Source of the DNA: Actinomycetota bacterium
GTDB lineage: Bacteria; Actinomycetota; Thermoleophilia; Gaiellales; Gaiellaceae
Direction: 5' to 3'
Length of the DNA stretch: 37,872 bases
NCBI GenBank assembly: GCA_900299235.1
Contig: OMIZ01000073.1
Coordinates: 1 to 37,872 of the forward strand
Shown here piece after piece: positions 15,396 to 19,396 of this stretch; within the stretch, counting starts at the first letter, position 1; each line of letters begins with the position of its first letter. The notes beneath the pieces are model-generated. The model did not search any database and had not been told where the DNA came from. It worked only from the letters and a program-made list of their open reading frames with translations. Position numbers and translations under genes: made by a program.

Positions 15396-15420
15396 GCCTA
15401 TACGATGCCAAATGGCGTGG
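15392..15420. repeat. Inverted repeat spanning the divergent start codons before coxB
   Basis: CCACGCC (15392-15398) and GGCGTGG (15414-15420) are perfect inverted repeats 15 bases apart. The left arm contains the GTG start of the minus-strand gene and the right arm an in-frame GTG (15417) that could start coxB. The spacer holds TATACGAT, a -10-like sequence for the plus strand. The symmetry could be an operator for a dimeric regulator or a chance effect of two genes starting with GTGG. Confidence 0.35.
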
Positions 15421-16403
15421 GTCGGAGAGCTGCCGTAGTCGCATTCGCAGTAGTCGCGGTCCTGCTGGTGCCCGCTACGACAGCGTTTGCGGGAAACGGC
15501 GGACTGCTGCCTTTGCCTGCTCACTCACCGAATGCACACCGCATTCGTGACGCATACGTGTTCGTGACGATCTTCGCCGCGATCATCTTCGTGATCGTTG
15601 AAGGCGCGCTCCTCGTGCTGATTACGCGCTACCGCCGTGGCAAGCGCTCTCGGTACCAGGAAGGGCCGCAGATCCACGGCTCGACACGGCTCGAAATCCT
15701 CTGGACCGTCGTGCCCGTGATCATGCTCGCCGCGATCGGCGGCTACGTCTTCTACAAGCTTCCGGGCATCAGCGATGCGCCGCCTGCGGCCGCTGCAAAC
15801 GAGACGACGATTACGGTCGAAGGGCACCAGTTCTACTGGCTCTTCAAGTACCCGAATGGTGCGGTCTCGATCGGCACGATGATCGCCCCCGCCGGCGAGG
15901 TCGTGCACGAAGACATCACCGCGCCGGCGACCGACGTCAACCACAGCTGGTGGGTTCCAGAGCTCGGCGGTAAGACCGATGCGATTCCCGGTCAGGTCAA
16001 CCACACGTGGTTCCAGGCGCCCGTCGGCTCCTACGTCGCACGCTGCGCTGAACTCTGCGGCATCCAGCACGCCCTGATGGACGCGACGGTCAAGGTCGTC
16101 CCTCGAGCGGAGTACGAGGCGTTCATCGCCGCCCGTGCAGCTGCGCCGGGGAGCACCGAGGTCGGCAAGGAGGAGTGGCTCAACGTCTGCTCGTCATGCC
16201 ATCGCCTGTCAGAGACCTACGTTGGGCCTGCGCTCGGCGGCAACCCGCTGCTGCGCGATCGAGCCGGCATCACCAACTTGCTCCGCCACGGCCTGCGCCA
16301 GATGCCCGCGGTGGGCGCGACGTGGTCGGAAGATCAGATCGACGCCTTGATCCACTACACCTCCACCTTCCCAAAGCAGAAGGCCAATGGCTTCCGGAGC
16401 TGA
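15405..16403 (+). CDS. coxB: Cytochrome c oxidase subunit II with fused cytochrome c domain (caa3-type)
   Basis: The 332-residue subunit has a signal peptide, two membrane helices (residues ~45-70 and ~90-115) and the CuA cupredoxin domain. CuA ligands are H180 (VNHSWWVP), C214 and C218 (CAELC), H222 and M225 (QHALM). A cytochrome c domain follows, with heme site C262-S-S-C265-H266 and a candidate axial methionine M300 (RQMPAVG). This makes the enzyme caa3-like, able to take electrons from its own heme c. The ATG at 15405 is used here, but a GTG at 15417 fits the promoter-like spacer better. Neither has a Shine-Dalgarno site. The end overlaps coxA by 17 bases. Copper loading probably depends on the Sco and redoxin genes of the adjacent cluster. 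Confidence 0.96.
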   Translation: MPNGVGRRAAVVAFAVVAVLLVPATTAFAGNGGLLPLPAHSPNAHRIRDAYVFVTIFAAIIFVIVEGALLVLITRYRRGKRSRYQEGPQIHGSTRLEILWTVVPVIMLAAIGGYVFYKLPGISDAPPAAAANETTITVEGHQFYWLFKYPNGAVSIGTMIAPAGEVVHEDITAPATDVNHSWWVPELGGKTDAIPGQVNHTWFQAPVGSYVARCAELCGIQHALMDATVKVVPRAEYEAFIAARAAAPGSTEVGKEEWLNVCSSCHRLSETYVGPALGGNPLLRDRAGITNLLRHGLRQMPAVGATWSEDQIDALIHYTSTFPKQKANGFRS

Positions 16404-18045
16404 GCACCTGCCGACGGTGGTGCGGCCACGCTACGAGTCCGACTGGCGGGCAGGCCGGATCACGGCCTGGCTGACCACCGTCGACCACAAGCGCATCGGC
16501 CTGCTCTACATCTGGACGACGCTCGGCTTCTTTGCGTTTGGCGGCATCCTCGCGCTCCTGATGCGCACGCAGCTCGCGACGCCGAACGAGAACTTCCTGA
16601 CCCGCAGCGCCTACAACCAGGTGCTCACGATCCACGGCACGACGATGATCTTCCTCGTCATCGTCCCGATCCTCGCGGGCTTCGGCAACTTCCTCGTGCC
16701 GCTGATGATTGGTGCGCGCGACATGGCGTTCCCCCGCCTGAACGCGCTCTCGTACTGGCTCTTTCTGCTCGGAGGAGTGGTGCTGCTCTCGAGCTTCTGG
16801 GCGGGACACGGCGCCGCCGCGGCGGGCTGGACGTCGTACGTTCCACTCTCAACGCTCCACATGCCCGGCCACGGCGAGGATTTCTGGATCCTCGGCCTCC
16901 ACATCCTTTCGATCTCGTCACTCGTTGGGGCGATCAACTTCATCGTGACGATCCACAACATGCGCACTTCAGGCATGACCTGGACGCGCATCCCGCTCTT
17001 TGTGTGGGCGATGCTGACCTACGCGTGGCTGCTTGTGATCGTGCTGCCGACGCTCTCAGCCGGCCTCACGATGATGCTGCTCGATCGCCAGTGGGGCACG
17101 CACTTCTTCGACCCGGCTCACGGTGGCAGCCCAATCCTGTACCAGCACGTCTTCTGGTTCTTCGGGCATCCCGAGGTCTACATCATGATCCTGCCCGCGA
17201 TGGGGATCGTGTCCGAGACCATTCCCGTGTTCTCGCGGAAGCCGATCTTCGGGTACAAGGCCGTCGCGTACTCGACAGCCGGCATCGCGTTCTTCTCGCT
17301 GCTCGTCTGGGCGCACCACATGTTCTCGGTTGGCCTGCCGATTGGCCTCGACGCGTTCTTCATGCTGAGCTCGATGGTGATCGCCGTTCCGACCGGCGTG
17401 AAGATCTTCAACTGGCTCGCGACGCTGTGGCGCGGAAACATTTCGTTCGACACACCGATGCTCTGGTCGATCGGCTTCATCGGCGTGTTCACGCTCGGTG
17501 GCCTCTCGGGCATCTTCCTCGCCGCCTTCCCGATTGACTGGCAGCTCACCGACACGTACTTCGTCGTCGCGCACCTCCACTACGTCCTGTTTGGTGGCTC
17601 GATCTTCGCGGTCTTTGGCGGCCTCTACTACTGGTGGCCGAAGATGTTTGGTCGGCTACTCAACGAGCGGCTCGGCAAGCTCCACTTCGCTCTCGTGCTG
17701 ATCGGCTTCAACGCGACGTTCCTGCCGCAGCACTTCCTGGGTCTGCTTGGGATGCCGCGGCGCGTCTACACCTACGAGTCGGGCGGAATCTGGGAGGTCT
17801 ACAACGTGATCTCAACGGTCGGCTCATTCGTGATGGCGCTTGGCATGCTCGTCTTTGTCCTGAACGTGATCGTCACGGCTCGTTCTGGCCGCCGCGCATC
17901 GAACGATCCGTGGCAGGCCGACACGCTCGAGTGGTACACGACGTCCCCACCACCAGCGTGGAACTTCGACCGCCTGCCGTACATTTCCAATGCCCGACCA
18001 TTGCGCGACGTGCGGCGGCGTTTGGAGGCTGAGCGGTGGAAGTAA
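16387..18045 (+). CDS. coxA: Cytochrome c oxidase subunit I (heme-copper oxidase, A family)
   Basis: The 552-residue protein has the twelve-helix heme-copper oxidase core. Ligands are H83 (TIHGT) and H398 for the low-spin heme, H261, H310 and H311 for CuB, and H396 for heme a3 (AHLHYVL). GHPEVY supplies E263 of the D-channel and the tyrosine that crosslinks to the CuB histidine, which identifies an A1-type oxidase. It reduces O2 to water and pumps protons in the cytoplasmic membrane. The start at 16387 lies inside the coxB 3' end, with AGAAGG four bases upstream. The soluble C-terminal tail after residue ~490 is short. Unlike many subunits I of caa3 enzymes, it is not fused to subunit III, and no subunit III gene follows. 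Confidence 0.97.
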   Translation: MASGAEHLPTVVRPRYESDWRAGRITAWLTTVDHKRIGLLYIWTTLGFFAFGGILALLMRTQLATPNENFLTRSAYNQVLTIHGTTMIFLVIVPILAGFGNFLVPLMIGARDMAFPRLNALSYWLFLLGGVVLLSSFWAGHGAAAAGWTSYVPLSTLHMPGHGEDFWILGLHILSISSLVGAINFIVTIHNMRTSGMTWTRIPLFVWAMLTYAWLLVIVLPTLSAGLTMMLLDRQWGTHFFDPAHGGSPILYQHVFWFFGHPEVYIMILPAMGIVSETIPVFSRKPIFGYKAVAYSTAGIAFFSLLVWAHHMFSVGLPIGLDAFFMLSSMVIAVPTGVKIFNWLATLWRGNISFDTPMLWSIGFIGVFTLGGLSGIFLAAFPIDWQLTDTYFVVAHLHYVLFGGSIFAVFGGLYYWWPKMFGRLLNERLGKLHFALVLIGFNATFLPQHFLGLLGMPRRVYTYESGGIWEVYNVISTVGSFVMALGMLVFVLNVIVTARSGRRASNDPWQADTLEWYTTSPPPAWNFDRLPYISNARPLRDVRRRLEAERWK

Positions 18046-18065
18046 GAATAGATAACGGAGGTGGG

Positions 18066-19244
18066 GTGGAACTCTTTGGTCGCCTGACTGCGCTCTTCGC
18101 AGTCGGAGCCACGGGTCTTGCCGTCATCTCGGGCGCGGCAGATTGGGGAACCACGCATCGCGTGCTCGCTGCCGTGGCGCTCCCTCCGCTTGCCGCGCTG
18201 GTGATCATCGCCTGGATTTCCGCCCGTCGCCTTCTACCCGGCGCGGTCTTTGCGCTCGTCACGTTCGGTCTCGCGGCATTGCTTACGACGCGCAGCATTC
18301 ACCTCGCCGCAGCGTCTGTTGCGTTCGCGGCGACGGTCTGGGTCAGCGCCCAGGCGTTCCGTCGGGGCCACAAGGCGGTGTACGGCACGGTCGCTGACTA
18401 CGTTGAGCTGACCAAGCCGCGCGTGATGAGCCTGCTCCTCCTTACCGGTGCTGCCGCCACATTCGTTGGGGCAGGCGGCGTTCCAAAGGCGAGCGTCTTC
18501 GTGCTGACCATGGTTGGGCTCGCGCTTGCGTGCGGCGGCTCGGGTGCGTTGAACCACTATCTCGACCGCGACATCGATCCACTGATGGGCGACCGCACGG
18601 CAGCGCGACCAGTTGCTGCAGGACGTGTGTCACCCGAGTCGGCCCTTGAGTTCGGGCTCGCGCTCTCGGCCCTCTCGTGGGTGCTGCTCGATGCGCTTGT
18701 GAACCTGCCGACCGCGACCCTGGCTCTCGCTGGCAACCTCTTCTACGTCTTTGTCTACACGCGGTGGTTGAAGCGCTCGACGCCGCAGAACATCGTGATC
18801 GGTGGCGCCGCAGGTGCAGTACCGCCGCTTGTCGGCTACGCCGGAACCGCCGGTCACCTCGGTTCCGCCGCGATCGTGATGTTCCTGATCGTGTTCATCT
18901 GGACGCCGCCCCACTTCTGGGCGCTCGCGCTGATGATCAAGGAGCACTACGCAGCAGCAAACGTGCCGATGCTCCCCGTTGCGAAGGGCGACGAGGAGAC
19001 GACGCGCCAGATCGTGCGGTACTCCTGGGTCATGCTCGCACTGACGCTCGTCCCGGTTGCGTTTGGCGTATTCGGATGGGTGTACGGAGCCCTCGCGCTC
19101 TTGCTGGGCGCGATCTTCATGGTCTACGCCGTGAAGCTGCGGCGTAATCCGATTCGCGAGCGCGCAGTCAGCCTCTTCCACTATTCGATGCTCTACCTCG
19201 CGCTGCTCTTCGTCGCGATGGCGATCGATGCGGTGGTTCTGTGA
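18066..19244 (+). CDS. ctaB: Protoheme IX farnesyltransferase (heme O synthase) with an extra N-terminal membrane domain
   Basis: From a GTG at 18066, preceded by GGAGGT at 18057-18062, the product has 392 residues. A GTG at 18036 would add ten residues. Residues ~115-392 are a UbiA-type prenyltransferase with the prenyl-diphosphate motif N163-HYLD167-RDID171 and the second motif region around WTPPHFWALAL. It converts heme B to heme O for the oxidase. Residues 1-105 are an additional four-helix membrane unit not found in typical CtaB (about 290-300 residues). Its THRVLAAVALPPL and SIHLAAASVAFA helices each carry a histidine and resemble half of CtaA/COX15, so this may be a degenerate heme A synthase half. 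The small protein gene downstream shares GTGA with its stop. Confidence 0.93.
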   Translation: MELFGRLTALFAVGATGLAVISGAADWGTTHRVLAAVALPPLAALVIIAWISARRLLPGAVFALVTFGLAALLTTRSIHLAAASVAFAATVWVSAQAFRRGHKAVYGTVADYVELTKPRVMSLLLLTGAAATFVGAGGVPKASVFVLTMVGLALACGGSGALNHYLDRDIDPLMGDRTAARPVAAGRVSPESALEFGLALSALSWVLLDALVNLPTATLALAGNLFYVFVYTRWLKRSTPQNIVIGGAAGAVPPLVGYAGTAGHLGSAAIVMFLIVFIWTPPHFWALALMIKEHYAAANVPMLPVAKGDEETTRQIVRYSWVMLALTLVPVAFGVFGWVYGALALLLGAIFMVYAVKLRRNPIRERAVSLFHYSMLYLALLFVAMAIDAVVL

Positions 19245-19396
19245 GCCAGGCTCCCGACTCGTTGCACGATCCGGTTGAGACCACTCCCGAGCTCGACCGC
19301 AAGAACATCCGGTTTGGCCTGGGTCTCTTCGCGCTGTTCCTCGTGCTCTTCGGAGGAACGTTCGGCGTTGGCCTCACCTACCTCTGGCTCTCCTAG
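19241..19396 (+). CDS. 51-residue single-span membrane protein, probable oxidase accessory
   Basis: A GTG at 19241 overlaps the ctaB stop (GTGA) and opens a frame of 51 codons ending with TAG at 19394-19396. The product has a polar, acidic N-terminus (SQAPDSLHDPVETTPELDRKN) and one C-terminal membrane helix (FGLGLFALFLVLFGGTFGVGLTYLWLS). The coupling, composition and place at the end of coxB-coxA-ctaB suggest a small structural subunit (subunit IV-like) or an assembly factor. Short proteins of this shape commonly trail oxidase operons. I cannot assign it to a named family. Confidence 0.65.
   Translation: MSQAPDSLHDPVETTPELDRKNIRFGLGLFALFLVLFGGTFGVGLTYLWLS

Follow-up and report, generated by a model that had tools for sequence, protein, structure and literature searches.

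The heme O synthase (CtaB) of Gaiellaceae, a family of the Actinomycetota, begins with about 105 residues that standard CtaB proteins do not have. The reading we favour, with a probability of roughly 0.6, is that these residues form a four-helix bundle derived from the COX15/CtaA superfamily, fused to an ordinary heme O synthase and acting as a heme-holding and/or docking part of it. To our knowledge, it is poorly understood how CtaB hands heme O to CtaA and how the heme then reaches the oxidase. A protein in which one CtaA bundle, with both likely ligands, sits on CtaB, a complete CtaA being encoded elsewhere, would allow the holding or docking part to be studied apart from the chemistry.

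The window, that is, the whole stretch of 37,872 nucleotides that was analysed, lies on contig 73 of a genome of 186 contigs and 2.1 Mb that is 88% complete. Its + strand carries, in this order, ctaC (15405..16403), encoding cytochrome c oxidase subunit II with a C-terminal cytochrome c domain, ctaD (16387..18045), encoding subunit I, and ctaB (18066..19244, TGA stop included), which starts with GTG and encodes 392 amino acids. A GGAGGT sequence at 18057..18062 (+), three bases before the GTG at 18066, is the likely ribosome-binding site; an alternative in-frame GTG at 18036 overlaps ctaD. The identity of the enzyme is given by two NCBIfam equivalog models for heme O synthase, TIGR01473 and NF003349, which cover residues 97-391 and 111-388; they score 353.5 and 315.8 bits against cut-offs of 246 and 210.3. 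A third, NF003348, misses its cut-off of 285 with a score of 188.9. Pfam UbiA covers residues 124-371, and a fold search with CtaB matched UbiA structures, with a best Z of 28.4 over 279 residues. The canonical core, of UbiA fold, lies at 18393..19241 (+), and its residues N163, D167 and D171, which we take to be the first catalytic motif, do not vary among 47 aligned sequences.

Immediately downstream, at 19241-19396 (+), lies an ORF of 51 amino acids with a single predicted helix, whose GTG overlaps the ctaB stop (GTGA). A similar small ORF is found 3' of ctaB in 35 of 52 named loci, usually with 38-58 amino acids (92 in L141), with the motif ELaRkN..G..LF and, mostly, YL..D at the end. The window copy has no Pfam match; our guess is that it probably encodes a small oxidase or assembly peptide.

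The N-terminal residues left over by the heme O synthase models match no Pfam family in the window protein. The extension, consisting of the bundle and a linker, comprises residues 1-109 (18066..18392, +). The initial annotation had described about 105 extra residues in four helices with histidines in THRVLAAV and SIHLAAAS, and AlphaFold2 bears this out: helices are predicted at residues 3-24 (18072..18137), 29-52 (18150..18221), 54-72 (18225..18281) and 76-98, or 76-97 (18291..18359), all on the + strand, with His31 (codon 18156..18158, +) in the first motif and near the outer-side start of helix 2, and His79 (18300..18302, +) in the second and near that of helix 4. The span of 18066-18420 then given for the extension reaches about 10 codons into CtaB proper. 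The four helices precede those of CtaB in a model of the whole window protein, built with 46 relatives (pLDDT 92), and are found again when the bundle is modelled alone (pLDDT 93). The positive charge of the extension is concentrated in the loop that joins helices 2 and 3 and in the stretch following helix 4: among 47 sequences, the inner loops hold 1.87 and 1.38 lysines plus arginines per sequence and the outer ones 0.09 and 0.43. These loop charges put His31, where helix 2 starts, and His79, where helix 4 starts, on the outer side of the membrane, as in CtaA. As to the fold itself, a search with the bundle model returned generic four-helix bundles only (best Z 12.9, for designed proteins), Foldseek gave no match at an E-value of 0.001 or below, and the solved CtaA fold was absent among the structure matches listed.

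The initial annotation had likened the extension to one four-helix half of heme A synthase (CtaA), a likeness now sustained by profile-profile comparison with controls. Fifty-nine CtaA sequences of the phylum were aligned, duplicates (among them L071, a near copy of L070) having been removed beforehand, and the alignment was cut into halves and compared with the extensions by hhalign. Against the CtaA N-half the extensions reach 95.6%, with a score of 52.6 over 98 columns, and against the C-half 85.1%, with a score of 38.1 over 99 columns; these and the following probabilities are pairwise ones, without calibration against a database. In both alignments the two extension histidines fall on CtaA histidines, His31 on that of helix 2 or helix 6 and His79 on that of helix 4 or helix 8. 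CtaAs from outside the family, taken alone, give 96.4% for the N-half and 84.6% for the C-half, in alignments confined to helices 2-4 (75 and 74 columns). Twenty control slices, from CtaB, COX1, COX3, CtaG and cytochrome b561-like proteins, gave at most 1.1% and a score of at most 15.4, with small control profiles (16 sequences for COX1, 8 for CtaG, 7 for COX3, picked by motif, and 25 for the cytochrome b561-like proteins). The best-scoring of 22 reversed profiles reached 0.53%, and three CtaB slices, the reversed CtaA halves, compared with the whole set of extensions or with parts of it, and the cytochrome b561-like profile stayed at or below 1.6%. For cytochrome b561-like proteins (PF01292, 25 sequences) taken by themselves, the probability was 0.15% for the whole profile and at most 1.1% for slices.

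The signal is unevenly spread. The more divergent extensions match the CtaA halves best (96.9% and 95.2%) and the window genus alone matches them least (70.6% for the N-half, 18.6% for the C-half), so that the case for a CtaA half rests on the divergent members of the family. Some divergent extensions (L099, L109) have a longer loop between helices 3 and 4 and a CtaA-like 'Q...GG.V' stretch. In every one of 40 subsamples the N-half scored above the C-half, with means of 50.4 and 38.0, and the halves tie when only the family's own CtaAs are used (32.7 and 32.5); the higher N-half score may simply come from a better conserved N-half profile. The two CtaA halves match one another better than the extension matches either. 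At the level of single sequences, a search for PF02628 (CtaA) found nothing in the window protein and one match, at E = 0.22, in 15 relatives; other Pfam families came ahead for some of the 15, namely EccD in three (best 3.4e-4), TMEM164 (0.0017) and EamA (0.0041), which we take for chance matches between membrane helices. Taken together, the profile comparisons make it very likely that the extension is homologous to one half of CtaA.

When 15 extensions were used as a profile against the PDB, T4 lysozyme (E = 0.027) and a designed repeat protein (0.19) came up, both of which were taken for chance. DUF420, which may be another four-helix ancestor, gave six matches in 80 genomes of the phylum, all below the cut-off, and at least two of the loci inspected, one of them in the source genome, resemble cytochrome oxidase subunit III on visual inspection. 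The weak match in the source genome, at G000:C127:2185-2568 (L212), lies on another contig than ctaB.

His31 and His79 are the only invariant columns across 48 aligned extensions (each 48/48); in a second set of 47, which overlaps the first and shares genomes with it, His31, Leu56 and His79 are invariant, each histidine being present in 47/47. An ORF filter left five of 53 loci (L041, L046, L049, L054 and L101) out of the 48-row alignment, and four of 50 named loci (L141, L149, L153 and L157) were left out of alignments A3 and A5; the named loci are a part of the collection, which holds at least the matches listed. Another histidine, where helix 2 ends on the inner side, occurs in 30 of the 48 extensions; the window protein lacks it. 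The extension is under purifying selection in close pairs: by the Nei-Gojobori method, its dN/dS is 0.057-0.154 in four pairs of relatives, and 0.057 and 0.103 between the window and its two nearest relatives, where dS is near 1.5. Against four more distant relatives the window extension gives 0.23-0.31 at a dS of 1.2-1.4, values that mean little. Between the window and its two nearest relatives, dN is higher for the extension than for the core, which is not so in two of the four pairs of relatives. The initial annotation had named as evidence against its proposal a lack of similarity to CtaA, or histidines lying on opposite sides of the membrane and not conserved; what is found is similarity to CtaA and two conserved histidines on the same side.

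The extension, searched against 299 genomes of the class, is present across the family of the window, and extended CtaB is a trait of Gaiellaceae. A whole-CtaB query finds a match in 77 of 92 genomes of the family; in 70 of these the match reaches the first 15 residues, so that the extension is present, although some are cut further on. The remaining seven are cut by a contig edge (G387, G415, G417, G471, G482, G483 and G487): six of the matches stop within 5 bases of the edge, and that of G471 begins at base 63, with part of the extension present. The extended loci, among the matches listed, include Gaiella sp. FR_16 (L173) and Gaiellaceae bacterium KatS3mg012 (L175). Two genomes that hold an extended ctaB also have a second one without the extension (G475:C124, L300, and G324:C134, L301), from which CtaB is presumably able to work without it. 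Outside the family, the extension occurs in G201 and G375, from other families of the order, in G352, from another family of the class, and in G058 (L006), from another family of the phylum. Since nearly all the extended loci, among the matches listed, come from metagenome-assembled genomes, the odd placements of G058, G352 and L157, the last labelled Acidobacteriota, may be binning errors. G352 combines an extended CtaB (L092) with a CtaA of the Asn type described below (L272), unlike those of its family mates whose CtaA was examined, a combination that may reflect joint transfer or mis-binned contigs.

The initial annotation had also proposed to look for a full-length ctaA in the genome, and one lies on another contig, 72 (G000:C72:11950-12735, L001). 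Across the family, 80 of 91 genomes have a CtaA match above the Pfam cut-off. In CtaAs of this family, and of other families in the class sample, the first helix-2 histidine is replaced by asparagine (E...NR), the other three histidines being kept. The replacement is found in 27 of 29 CtaA rows of the family, L001 included. The exceptions are L062 and L063; further CtaAs of G265 (the source of L062), G111 and G175 also have Asn, and a second CtaA of G348 (the source of L063) was not found within the stretch examined. Asn is also found in the CtaAs of the extended outliers G201, G375 and G352 (L270-L272). The substitution is known: the available text of PMC8239418 gives it as H60N, type 1.3, for Acidimicrobiaceae, and that of PMC12808453 reports Asn in 34% of type 1C heme A synthases. 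A strict link between the extension and this change was considered and rejected: Asn-type CtaA also stands beside unextended CtaB in G078 (L282, L007) and G121 (L289, L013). The asparagine is thus a background feature shared by much of the class sample and does not go exclusively with the extension. We accordingly give little credence to a more elaborate scheme, by which a CtaA half devoid of catalytic activity would have become part of CtaB as its own heme-transfer cytochrome, working in an obligate complex with Asn-type CtaA and with the bundle supplying the lost bis-histidine heme seat.

In the mechanism we propose, the CtaA-derived bundle would stand in frame ahead of an otherwise ordinary heme O synthase, and His31 and His79 would ligate one heme (b or o) within it, in the way that a CtaA half holds heme at its bis-histidine site. 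The bundle would keep heme beside CtaB and/or dock CtaB to CtaA, and poorly soluble heme O would go from enzyme to enzyme, never leaving the complex. For CtaA, the portions available of PMC9145763, PMC8239418 and PMC7327177 describe a C-bundle that holds heme b via two histidines and an N-bundle that takes the substrate. A heme-holding and/or CtaA-docking role is the best reading because the bundle keeps just these ligands, is under selection and is fixed to CtaB. It seems rather likely that the extension binds heme; that its role is heme hand-over or docking is a more tentative proposal, and the heme-delivery module suggested in the initial annotation is a possible role as well.

Docking might also be all that the bundle does. 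The pseudo-half would then pack on full-length CtaA and tether CtaB to it, its histidines serving the fold or a structural heme, without any transfer. Such an arrangement would agree with the likeness of the extension profile to that of one CtaA half, with the separate full-length CtaA of most family genomes and with the formation of a CtaA-CtaB complex, as published in PMC9145763 (in the part of the article available). However, the invariant columns of the 48-row alignment are the two histidines only, with no surface patch, and docking does not need both ligands, so that we consider a purely structural role unlikely.

The origin of the bundle was approached through a CtaB tree of 85 rows, the root of which is arbitrary. 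Thirty extended CtaBs and three unextended ones form a group of 33 (support 100/99), adjoined, through a weak branch (84/47), by four unfused CtaBs of the same class, Thermoleophilia. Of 19 full CtaA-CtaB fusions, 18 fall in another group of 31 (100/99), together with 13 unfused CtaBs. The distribution of the extension on this tree needs three changes, for instance one gain and two losses. From the placement on the tree, and subject to its arbitrary root, it is probable that the extended-CtaB group acquired the bundle near its base, and that the bundle is not a leftover of the full fusions of the phylum. Such fusions are seen in several other families of the phylum (L015, L027, L112, L113, L118, L128 and others), and 18 full-fusion rows of the tree come from genomes of the phylum.

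These data bear on the initial proposal that the extension is a relic of a CtaA-CtaB fusion. The existence of full fusions elsewhere in the phylum, for instance L015, and in Thermomicrobium roseum lends some substance to a fusion that lost one of its halves, the remnant having at most a present role in membrane insertion. That the extension is a relic in decay, however, accords badly with the purifying selection seen in close pairs, with its retention throughout the family and with the two histidines that never vary, and truncation of a fusion is not favoured by the tree, which sets the extended CtaBs apart from the fusions and beside unfused Thermoleophilia CtaBs, albeit through the weak branch and with the root mentioned above. 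We therefore regard a fusion remnant as quite unlikely.

Could the extended CtaB be a second heme A synthase of four-helix type, dimerising via its bundle and making heme A, as archaeal CtaB-fused enzymes may? Its layout is the same as that of two haloarchaeal proteins, the plasmid copies of Halobaculum sp. XH14 and Natrinema zhouii (L290, L291), which served as the archaeal rows of the comparison. A glutamate three residues before the first histidine, which we equated in the present analysis with E57 of the published numbering, is found in one of 47 extensions as against every CtaA row of the compared alignment; the two haloarchaeal bundles also have no such glutamate, so that its absence is not decisive. 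Against this possibility stand the outer loop between helices 1 and 2, of about 4 residues and without a cysteine pair, and the full-length CtaA in the same genome and in most genomes of the family, and we hold it improbable. The extension is not a full heme A synthase, being of half length, without the outer cysteine loop or the conserved glutamate and accompanied by a separate ctaA; the chemistry of heme A synthase has probably been lost from it. An unrelated four-helix membrane bundle that converged on two histidines would fit the weak and mixed single-sequence signal and the generic fold matches, but is hardly probable given scores against the CtaA halves well above those of the 20 control slices, histidines aligned on histidines and a cytochrome b561-like signal of only 0.15-1.1%.

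Compared with known systems, the C-terminal part of the protein is the same throughout as CtaB/Cox10 (TIGR01473, NF003349), and standard CtaB differs in having no bundle of 105 residues ahead of it. With CtaA/COX15 (PF02628), of which a solved relative of the source genome's own CtaA is available (6A2J), the extension shares a four-helix bundle, outer-side histidines on helices 2 and 4 and profile similarity. It differs in its half length, in having neither the cysteine loop nor the conserved glutamate, and in lying below detection by single-sequence searches; the eight-helix, two-bundle layout of bacterial heme A synthases is absent. The full CtaA-CtaB fusions of bacteria (the available text of PMC8239418; L015 and others), among which that of Thermomicrobium roseum (L292) was used for direct comparison, likewise place CtaA-type bundles N-terminal to CtaB in one chain. 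They have two bundles and eight helices, whereas Gaiellaceae CtaB has a single four-helix bundle in frame; they form a separate group on the CtaB tree, and Gaiellaceae have a separate CtaA besides.

The same layout is known from archaea. According to the sections available of PMC12808453, a four-helix type 1A heme A synthase is fused to heme O synthase in Halobacteria, and type 1A is called completely absent from bacteria. As in Gaiellaceae CtaB, a four-helix CtaA half with two histidines lies N-terminal to CtaB; in the archaeal type 1A bundles, unlike in the extension, the outer loop is longer and a cysteine pair is present. In profile comparisons, the two archaeal rows together match the extensions at 23.9% for all of them, 73% for the divergent subset and 0.5% for the window genus, and single archaeal rows match at 0.6% and 6.9%; both haloarchaeal bundles match both CtaA halves better than the extension does. 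In the open-licence titles and abstracts surveyed, and in the accessible parts of PMC12808453, PMC8239418, PMC9145763 and PMC7327177, we found no description of a bacterial form made of a four-helix CtaA half and CtaB. The comparison suggests that the Gaiellaceae layout is a bacterial counterpart of the archaeal one, probably of independent origin, so that a layout said, in the consulted portion of PMC12808453, to be absent from bacteria would have its bacterial representative in this family.
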